DNA of 64,000 bases from Pelosinus fermentans JBW45 (lineage in GTDB: Bacteria; Bacillota; Negativicutes; DSM-13327): the NCBI RefSeq assembly GCF_000271665.2, contig NZ_CP010978.1:4881001-4945000 (forward strand), in the 5' to 3' direction. The notes under the pieces are model-generated. The model saw nothing but the letters and a program-made list of their open reading frames with translations, ran no database searches and had not been told where the DNA came from. Made by a program: the position numbers and the translations under genes. Positions 11,865 to 13,040 of this stretch are shown here, in pieces (position 1 is the stretch's first letter; every line of letters begins with the position of its first letter).

Positions 11865-11919
11865 CCTCCAAAAGTTTAAATATAACTTTGAAGGTTTGGC
11901 CAACTTAATGTCACCATCC
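11865..11919 (-). promoter_or_regulatory. RAT-like element and RBS-sequestering hairpin before bglF
   Basis: The minus strand has GGATGGTGAC, eight bases, then GGCCAAACC (11893-11919), resembling the BglG/LicT target GGATTGTTAC-N10-GGCAAAACC. Its last two C begin a second stem, CCTTCAAAGTT (11884-11894) with AACTTTTGGAGG (11865-11876), that contains the bglF ribosome-binding site. No poly-T follows, so it is not an intrinsic terminator. The 34-nt core (11887-11920) recurs exactly at 12980-13013. RAT assignment is inference. Confidence 0.6.
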
Positions 11920-11976
11920 ACAAAACGATTTTCTATCCTCCTTTACTCTTAGGATTCTATAGCACTAAATATGCAT

Positions 11977-12828
11977 TTAGGACTTAGTGAGCTTATCTTT
12001 TCTTGTTACCTTAGCGATATGAATCATCAGATAGAATTTTTCATCTGCACTCACCTGATATTTGTACTTCATCTGAATAAATACATCAATTTTCTGCACA
12101 CAACGGTATGCTGCCGCGTATTTTTTCTGGACAAGTTTTTCCATTTCTTCATCGACTTCAGCAACTGTTTCTCTTTCTGTAAACATACGATTCGCAAAAA
12201 ATTTCAAATGCGTAATAAAACGATAATATGGTAAGGATTCTATATCAAACTCCACTGCGAATGTATGACGAACAATATTCGTAATTTCCTGTATCAGTTT
12301 CGTGATATAGTCAGCGATTGGCTTATCTCCATCAATCTGTGCATCAACGATATGCAGTGCAATAAAACCAGCTTCATCAATTGGTAATTCTAGTCCAAAT
12401 TTCTGATTCAGCATCACCAATGCCGTTTCACCAATCGCATATTCATTACGATAAAAGCGTTTGATTTCCCAATTCATCATATTCTTGATACCAACGCCTT
12501 CTCTAAAACGCGTAATTGCCATATGCAAGTGATCGGTAAGGGATATATAGACACAATCGTTGAGTTTTTTTTGCAATCTTTGCTCTGCCATCTCAATAAT
12601 TTCACTAGATATCTCCATGTATTCCATCGAAAGATTTTGCACAAGCTGTTCAAAACGCTGAAAAACTTCTTGATTAGAAAGCGTATATACTTTATCAATT
12701 TCTGTTCTTGGCACATCGTCGCCACAGCGCTTTTTAAACGCAATGCCGCGCCCCATCGCGACAATTTCCTGTGCCTTTTCATTCTCAGTAATAATGACGT
12801 TATTGTTGAGTATCTTTTTTATTATCAT
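11977..12828 (-). CDS. bglG: BglG/LicT-family transcription antiterminator
   Basis: About 283 residues. The N-terminal RNA-binding CAT domain (1-55, MIIKKILNNNVIITEN ... MGRGIAFKKRCGD) is followed by PRD1 (about 65-165, with H in LTDHLHMAI) and PRD2 (about 175-280, with H in LHIVD). Family members bind RAT hairpins when dephosphorylated by the cognate EII and activated by HPr. The ATG at 12828 fits the family N-terminus, and the GTG at 12852 would add eight atypical residues. A short frame (12800-12949) with a stronger RBS overlaps its start. It lies between the GH1 and PTS genes and has its own promoter (13041-13070). Confidence 0.9.
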   Translation of the reverse strand: MIIKKILNNNVIITENEKAQEIVAMGRGIAFKKRCGDDVPRTEIDKVYTLSNQEVFQRFEQLVQNLSMEYMEISSEIIEMAEQRLQKKLNDCVYISLTDHLHMAITRFREGVGIKNMMNWEIKRFYRNEYAIGETALVMLNQKFGLELPIDEAGFIALHIVDAQIDGDKPIADYITKLIQEITNIVRHTFAVEFDIESLPYYRFITHLKFFANRMFTERETVAEVDEEMEKLVQKKYAAAYRCVQKIDVFIQMKYKYQVSADEKFYLMIHIAKVTRKDKLTKS

Positions 12829-12949
12829 GGCAGCCGTGTCCCCTTCCCGCACGCAAATATTTCATTTTAGACACAAAAATACCGAAAAACAGACAATTAC
12901 TTATCTTTGTCCTTTTTCGGTTCTCTATCATTTCTATTCTTTTATGCAT
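12800..12949 (-). CDS. 49-codon leader ORF overlapping the start of bglG
   Basis: ATG at 12949 is preceded by GGAGGTGATTAAG, the best ribosome-binding site in this leader. The frame runs 49 codons and stops 29 bases inside bglG. The peptide (MHKRIEMIENRKRTKISN...) resembles no family I know. Its RBS is inside the RAT-linked hairpin at 12958-12987. It may couple bglG translation to the RNA switch. Function not established. Confidence 0.4.
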   Translation of the reverse strand: MHKRIEMIENRKRTKISNCLFFGIFVSKMKYLRAGRGHGCHDNKKDTQQ

Positions 12950-12957
12950 CTTAATCA

Positions 12958-13012
12958 CCTCCAAAATTTATTTAATAAATTTGAAGGTTTGGCCAACTTA
13001 ATGTCACCATCC
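12958..13012 (-). promoter_or_regulatory. RAT-like element and RBS-sequestering hairpin before bglG
   Basis: Second exact copy of the RAT-like sequence (12986-13012). The downstream stem CCTTCAAATTTA (12976-12987) / TAAATTTTGGAGG (12958-12970) buries the GGAGG used by the leader ORF. The arms outside the repeat differ from the bglF copy, yet the pairing is kept, which argues for selection on structure. Confidence 0.6.
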
Positions 13013-13040
13013 AATATTCCGCTCTTTATTTATTGCGTTT

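Follow-up and report, generated by a model that had tools for sequence, protein, structure and literature searches.

Among the nearest known counterparts of the locus analyzed here are the RAT-terminator leaders of BglG/LicT systems (the bglP and bglG leaders; terminators t1 and t2 of the Escherichia coli bgl operon), in which a protein with a CAT_RBD and PRDs acts on a RAT that is mutually exclusive with an overlapping terminator hairpin. A different route to the same kind of decision is taken by ribosome-mediated attenuators with leader peptides (trp, tna, erm, bmrB), where translation of a short open reading frame (ORF) decides whether a terminator forms. LicT contacts the two bulges of its RAT plus the stem between them (PMC7430163), and RAT leaders of Bacillota bgl operons are represented in Rfam by RF03530 (bglG-cis-reg), which models the RAT plus the terminator. 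In the bglGTH operon of Clostridium acetobutylicum, RATs ahead of bglG and of the EIIBCA gene both respond to the BglG encoded in that operon, and both were demonstrated to control terminators ending in U-rich tails, with a RAT consensus different from that reported here (PMC12628678). RATs without terminators have been noted before, as reflected in citations of Gordon et al. 2015 (PMC9981650, PMC12502629). Control of translation by an antitermination protein has been predicted for ANTAR sites that overlap ribosome-binding sites (Ramesh et al. 2012, PMC3369931), and the RNA-binding protein TRAP of Bacillus subtilis acts on transcription at some targets and on translation at others (trp leader versus trpE/trpG; PMC7430163). 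However, the proteins and RNA motifs in both cases are unrelated to those described here, the ANTAR case is a prediction only, and TRAP binding represses.

The DNA analyzed was a stretch of 64,000 nt ("the window") from Pelosinus fermentans JBW45 (GCF_000271665.2, NZ_CP010978.1, positions 4,881,001 to 4,945,000 of the forward strand). On its minus strand it carries, in this order, bglA, bglG and bglF (Table 1); operon and regulatory positions are the same as in known LicT/BglG systems. The nearest solved relatives of BglG are LicT structures (PDB 1l1c/6twr/1tlv), and a genome search identified the bglG product as the sole LicT-type antiterminator. One further CAT_RBD protein is encoded in the genome, but it was rejected as the binder of the RATs described below because it adjoins a glucose/GlcNAc-type EII transporter and no RAT of this pattern was found nearby.

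Table 1. Features of the bgl region, with positions counted from the first letter of the window, and tandem RAT loci of other genomes in their own coordinates
Feature	Position	Strand	Details
Outer-membrane/porin-like gene	8486-9856	-	~460 aa; no Pfam match; homologues in L059, L068, L055, L074
bglF	9946-11856	-	beta-glucoside PTS EIIBCA; Pfam PTS_EIIA_1, EIIC, EIIB; ATG 8 nt past GGAGG of copy 1 hairpin
Repeat copy 1	11865-11920	-	before bglF
SD-sequestering hairpin, copy 1	11865-11894	-	RAT 3' CC pairs with GG of GGAGG (11865-11869); excludes RAT
RAT, copy 1	11893-11919	-	GGAUGGUGACAUUAAGUUGGCCAAACC; from sequence; covariance model match 80.7 bits
bglG	11977-12828	-	CAT_RBD and two PRDs (Pfam)
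Leader ORF, 49 codons	12800-12949	-	ATG 8 nt past GGAGG of copy 2; spans terminator, overlaps bglG start (12828)
Intrinsic terminator within leader ORF	12874-12921	-	5' of bglG; hairpin 12881-12921 and U-run; -14.7 kcal/mol, z -3.9
Repeat copy 2	12958-13013	-	before bglG
SD-sequestering hairpin, copy 2	12958-12987	-	GGAGG at 12958-12962
RAT, copy 2	12986-13012	-	same 27 nt as copy 1; from sequence; covariance model match 82.0 bits
Promoter-like site	13041-13070	-	TTGACT-18-TATGAT with TG, just 5' of copy 2; 10/12 matches, consensus match only
Terminator-like inverted repeat	13104-13145	-	perfect, 15 bp; 3' of bglA, divides bglA unit from bglG leader
bglA	13154-14578	-	6-phospho-beta-glucosidase-like GH1; Pfam Glyco_hydro_1
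Canonical RAT and terminator	14610-14691	-	5' of bglA; RAT 14665-14691 (GGAUUGUUACUGGUAACAGGCAAAACC) overlaps terminator with U-run; inverted repeat; z -5 to -6
Tandem RATs, L059	2562-2736		
Tandem RATs, L068	4133-4287	-	
Tandem RATs, L074	2203-2368	-	
Tandem RATs, L055	18493-18621		

An initial annotation of this DNA had described an identical 34-nt sequence before bglF and bglG and likened it to a BglG/LicT RAT, and both descriptions hold. The two copies are 88% identical across 56 nt, with an identical core of 34 nt, and as RNA each reads GG-A-UGG-UGA-CA-loop-UG-G-CCA-AA-CC, that is, a GG/CC base, two asymmetric internal loops flanking a 3-bp stem, and an upper stem-loop. We take this detailed loop layout to match that of the RAT in the LicT complex. 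In relatives the middle-stem pair 5/22 occurs as G-C, A-U, C-G and U-A, one genus has a longer upper stem with compensatory substitutions, and the 27-nt RAT recurs, exact or near-exact, in other families. A cognate CAT-PRD-PRD gene is at hand: bglG lies between the copies in P. fermentans JBW45 and upstream in ~59 other loci. Judged by this architecture and the covarying middle pair, both repeats are genuine BglG/LicT RATs, and the 34 bases shared by the two copies suggest that the bglG leader unit was derived by copying the bglF unit. Rfam at its gathering threshold gave zero matches in the whole window; RF03530 matched neither copy and reached only the bglA leader, weakly (32 bits against a threshold of 80), and no family of Rfam 15 fits the combination of RAT and GGAGG hairpin described next (hereafter the RAT-SD unit).

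As the initial annotation had also pointed out, in both copies the closing CC of the RAT opens a second stem (CCUUCAAA.../...UUUUGGAGG) whose far arm contains GGAGG, and the outer arms are unlike between copies yet keep their pairing (AAAGUU/AAACUUU versus AAAUUUAUU/AAUAAAUUU). The 3' end of the RAT is therefore shared with a mutually exclusive hairpin, since its CC pairs with the GG of the Shine-Dalgarno (SD) sequence; unlike in LicT/BglG leaders, this hairpin ends in an SD and not in a U-run, so that the output would be ribosome access. Taken singly, the two copies fold no better than shuffled sequences (z -0.6 and -1.2) and these folds were not used as evidence, so the case for the hairpin rests on comparison. 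In a gap-free comparison of 112 distinct hairpins that involved no structure fitting, stem positions 7-12 pair in 62-77% versus 37-57% with shuffled partners (0/2000 each), with position 7 being A-U in 41 hairpins and U-A in 33. A model-based alignment of 78 units showed two-sided changes at six of eight hairpin pairs (0/500 shuffles matched this), and the signal was lost when the partner was slid by 1-3 columns. The pairing between switch and SD is thus both conserved and covarying, as expected of a translational RNA switch; the initial annotation had named a lack of second-stem conservation in relatives as grounds for refutation, but the stem is kept by compensatory change across Bacillota and in Brachyspira. 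Exchanging 3' halves between units left the SD hidden in 85% of chimeras, which is a weak null since CCUUC/GGAGG is invariant.

Enforcing the RAT lowered the mean predicted cost of opening the SD from 6.7 to 2.5 kcal/mol across 105 units (copy 1: 6.4 to 2.1 kcal/mol; copy 2: 8.5 to 2.5 kcal/mol). Formation of the RAT itself costs 6.4-8.0 kcal/mol in the two P. fermentans JBW45 copies, so the RAT would need the protein. RAT binding takes away just two to three outer base pairs, the UUC left over continues to pair with GGA intermittently, and the SD is unpaired ~46% of the time on average even with the RAT enforced; release of the SD in these models may thus be partial.

It is conceivable that these are ordinary antitermination sites, with the second stem a weak or Rho-assisted terminator or a pause site and the GGAGG coincidental, given that terminators are the targets of those BglG/LicT RATs whose output is known (PMC12628678, PMC1489936) and that the unit of genome G020 has a short U-rich stretch past its GGGGGGG. 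We consider this very improbable: a U-run after GGAGG is absent from 103 of 105 units, which sets them apart from the RAT-terminator form modelled by RF03530; the 3' arm invariably ends in an SD shortly before a start codon, with the CCUUC arm kept to match; and the terminators that are used with this RAT are separate, different hairpins, sometimes in tandem with a RAT-SD unit (L059, L068). Hardly credible to us, finally, is a RAT that chiefly governs mRNA stability or processing (through RNase III or 5'-end protection) with translation secondary. An Enterococcus leader of the BglG family is indeed a target of RNase III (PMC12502629), and the title of Gordon et al. 2015, as cited, proposes other jobs for a terminator-free RAT, but neither the SD as constant stem partner nor the leader ORF described below would be explained.

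At bglF, the covarying SD stem agrees with the proposal of the initial annotation that RAT binding frees the SD, turning antitermination into translational control; at bglG, the same proposal has to be revised, as a leader ORF and a terminator lie between the unit and the gene. The GGAGG of copy 2 is not the ribosome-binding site of bglG but serves a 49-codon ORF, which starts AUG CAU AAA AGA and contains an intrinsic terminator (CCGAAAAAGGACAA...UUGUCUGUUUUUCGG-UAUUUUU, 31-75 nt downstream). The earlier remark that no poly-T follows is consequently right for the few bases past GGAGG and wrong farther downstream of copy 2, where that terminator has its U-run. Since the freed copy 2 site belongs to the leader ORF and a terminator separates it from bglG, control of bglG is, on this arrangement, most likely still transcriptional, through a ribosome.

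The succession of RAT, GGAGG hairpin, tiny ORF, terminator and bglG was seen in about eight Negativicutes genera, which share the layout with unrelated leader ORF sequences: MKNSLK-stop in Propionispira, GUG-AAA-UGA in Propionispora, GUG-UGA or GUG-UAA in uncultured Veillonellaceae, 7 codons from UUG in G020, 10 codons in Selenomonas ruminantium and neighbours, and 28 and 32 codons in the Pectinatus genus (g56). As would be expected of an attenuator, the short ORF overlaps or abuts the terminator 5' of bglG, except in genomes G004 (a 3-codon ORF ending 16 nt ahead of the terminator) and G296 (L073:2054-2109; unit followed by terminator, GGGGGG lacking a start codon at the usual distance). The latter does have a tiny ORF, AUG AUU UUG UGA, that stops right at the terminator. 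In ~23 leaders the terminator starts 16-33 nt and ends 53-81 nt past GGAGG, so that its 5' arm would be covered by a ribosome standing on or close to the start codon. Eleven aligned leaders (genera g12, g69) are the most informative: their ORF is always 10 codons long and gap-free, with the stop (UGA or UAG) always at codon 11, variation is seen in 21 of the 27 columns inside the ORF, and the two alternative frames are mostly closed. The stop codon lies inside the covarying terminator stem (seven stem pairs with two-sided change), and its change from UGA to UAG is accompanied by a change from G-C to A-U in that stem. In contrast to the leader-peptide attenuators, the ribosome-binding site in the bglG leader would be gated by a separate sugar-responsive protein, and codon content is seemingly not the signal.

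The overlap of the leader ORF with the bglG start in P. fermentans JBW45 could also be read as plain translational control at both sites, with bglG translated by coupling through the ORF and the leader hairpin being no working terminator; a further locus (L072), where a RAT-SD unit stands directly on bglG without a terminator, would fit this as well. We regard such coupling as unlikely, because the eleven relatives end their ORF ~80-90 nt 5' of a bglG that, as in most relatives, has its own SD, the leader hairpin has a U-run and covaries, and the orthologous position is a RAT-terminator in one related genus (L082, L083, L084). There, a terminator in direct overlap with the RAT precedes bglG, so the position seems to have kept termination as its output. 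Besides L072, a further exception to the relay layout is the related genome G013, in which bglG lacks the leader and follows directly after bglA (L010, upstream of 514): the RAT, SD hairpin and terminator 5' arm are lost, and a remnant of the 3' arm with its U-run is left.

Our preferred explanation of the locus, to which we assign a probability of roughly 0.7, is BglG-gated SD release at bglF combined with ribosome-mediated read-through at bglG. We infer that both RATs are recognised by the BglG of the same operon and that the inducer is a beta-glucoside. Without inducer, BglG would be inactive and the RAT unstable, so that its closing CC pairs with GGAGG and the ribosome-binding site is hidden; with inducer, active BglG would clamp the RAT, withdraw the CC, loosen the hairpin and free GGAGG. 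In vivo, at copy 1 this would directly turn on translation of bglF, whereas at copy 2 it would load a ribosome onto the leader ORF, and that ribosome (or the initiating subunit) would cover the 5' arm of the terminator, acting as the antiterminator and allowing RNA polymerase to continue into bglG. The protein-gated ribosome relay that this implies, in which RAT binding opens a minimal leader ORF (down to start plus stop), the ribosome and not BglG prevents termination, and one protein thereby sets bglF translation and bglG transcription through interchangeable output modules around one aptamer, is a reading towards which we lean with somewhat less assurance. Its main doubt is timing. A ribosome must load before RNA polymerase travels ~70 nt, and in B. 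subtilis ribosomes fall behind RNA polymerase (PMC7858274). It is also worth noting that 44% of 32 terminators in these genomes, a small sample, are found no more than 12 nt from a stop codon, so that coupling of transcription and translation may be weak here.

Using a covariance model, RAT-SD units were identified in 41 of 380 Negativicutes genomes (12 of 102 genera), 4 of 391 Clostridia and 8 of 399 Bacilli. Two model matches (L088 and L089) were discarded as ordinary terminators with no RAT. A degenerate DNA pattern additionally matched in Clostridium, C. difficile, Lachnospiraceae, Erysipelotrichaceae, Enterococcus, Vagococcus, Lacticaseibacillus, Peribacillus and Brachyspira, nearly always as CCUUC...GGAGG followed by the start of bglF. 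Outside Negativicutes, ~74 of 83 distinct units stand immediately 5' of bglF, and no RAT-SD unit was found there on a short ORF. The unit lies between bglG and bglF in ~59 loci outside Negativicutes (a few of these may be Negativicutes), and in ~37 of them the bglG leader has another RAT (of the GGAUAGUGAUUG...CAAGCUAAACC type) followed by a U-run. With a RAT-terminator before bglG and a RAT-SD unit before bglF, one BglG would act first on transcription and then on translation; by sequence, this is the usual layout in other Bacillota and is not peculiar to P. fermentans JBW45. The RAT positions in the bglG and bglF leaders are those of E. coli bgl terminators t1 and t2, but the output at the second is a different one. 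The split between transcription and translation is not universal, since both RAT sites of C. acetobutylicum act on terminators.

BglG/LicT antitermination as such is known, while neither an SD-type RAT nor a RAT-gated leader-ORF relay was described in the literature searched, most subscription papers being outside its scope. If the explanation is correct, a textbook antiterminator family also activates translation across Bacillota (C. difficile, enterococci and lactobacilli among them), and the leaders of many bglF genes call for re-annotation. The same RNA aptamer would have three outputs (terminator, ribosome-binding site and leader-ORF relay), sometimes in tandem in one leader, an illustration of how evolution can exchange regulatory outputs. 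If true, the relay would offer a natural way of testing if ribosomes keep pace with RNA polymerase in Negativicutes, a question raised by the reported uncoupling of the two in B. subtilis.

The canonical LicT-type RAT before bglA, which overlaps a strong terminator, was absent from the initial annotation, and with it the gene cluster combines terminator and SD outputs. Tandem RATs were seen in four loci of other genomes (Table 1), each with a RAT-terminator, then ~100 nt farther on a RAT-SD unit, and then a porin-like gene or bglF; such leaders would combine transcriptional and translational control within one leader. In the spirochaete Brachyspira (L100, L104, L145) the RAT-SD unit occurs with bglG and bglF and was probably acquired from Bacillota by transfer. 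A unit in Trichococcus pasteurii (L163, minus strand, position 4941) stands 5' of a lipoprotein-like gene (MKRKNAWMISLGAMAVLLLGGC), a target that is neither bglF nor a porin. The start of the porin-like gene is under a RAT-SD unit in many Negativicutes, though not in P. fermentans JBW45.
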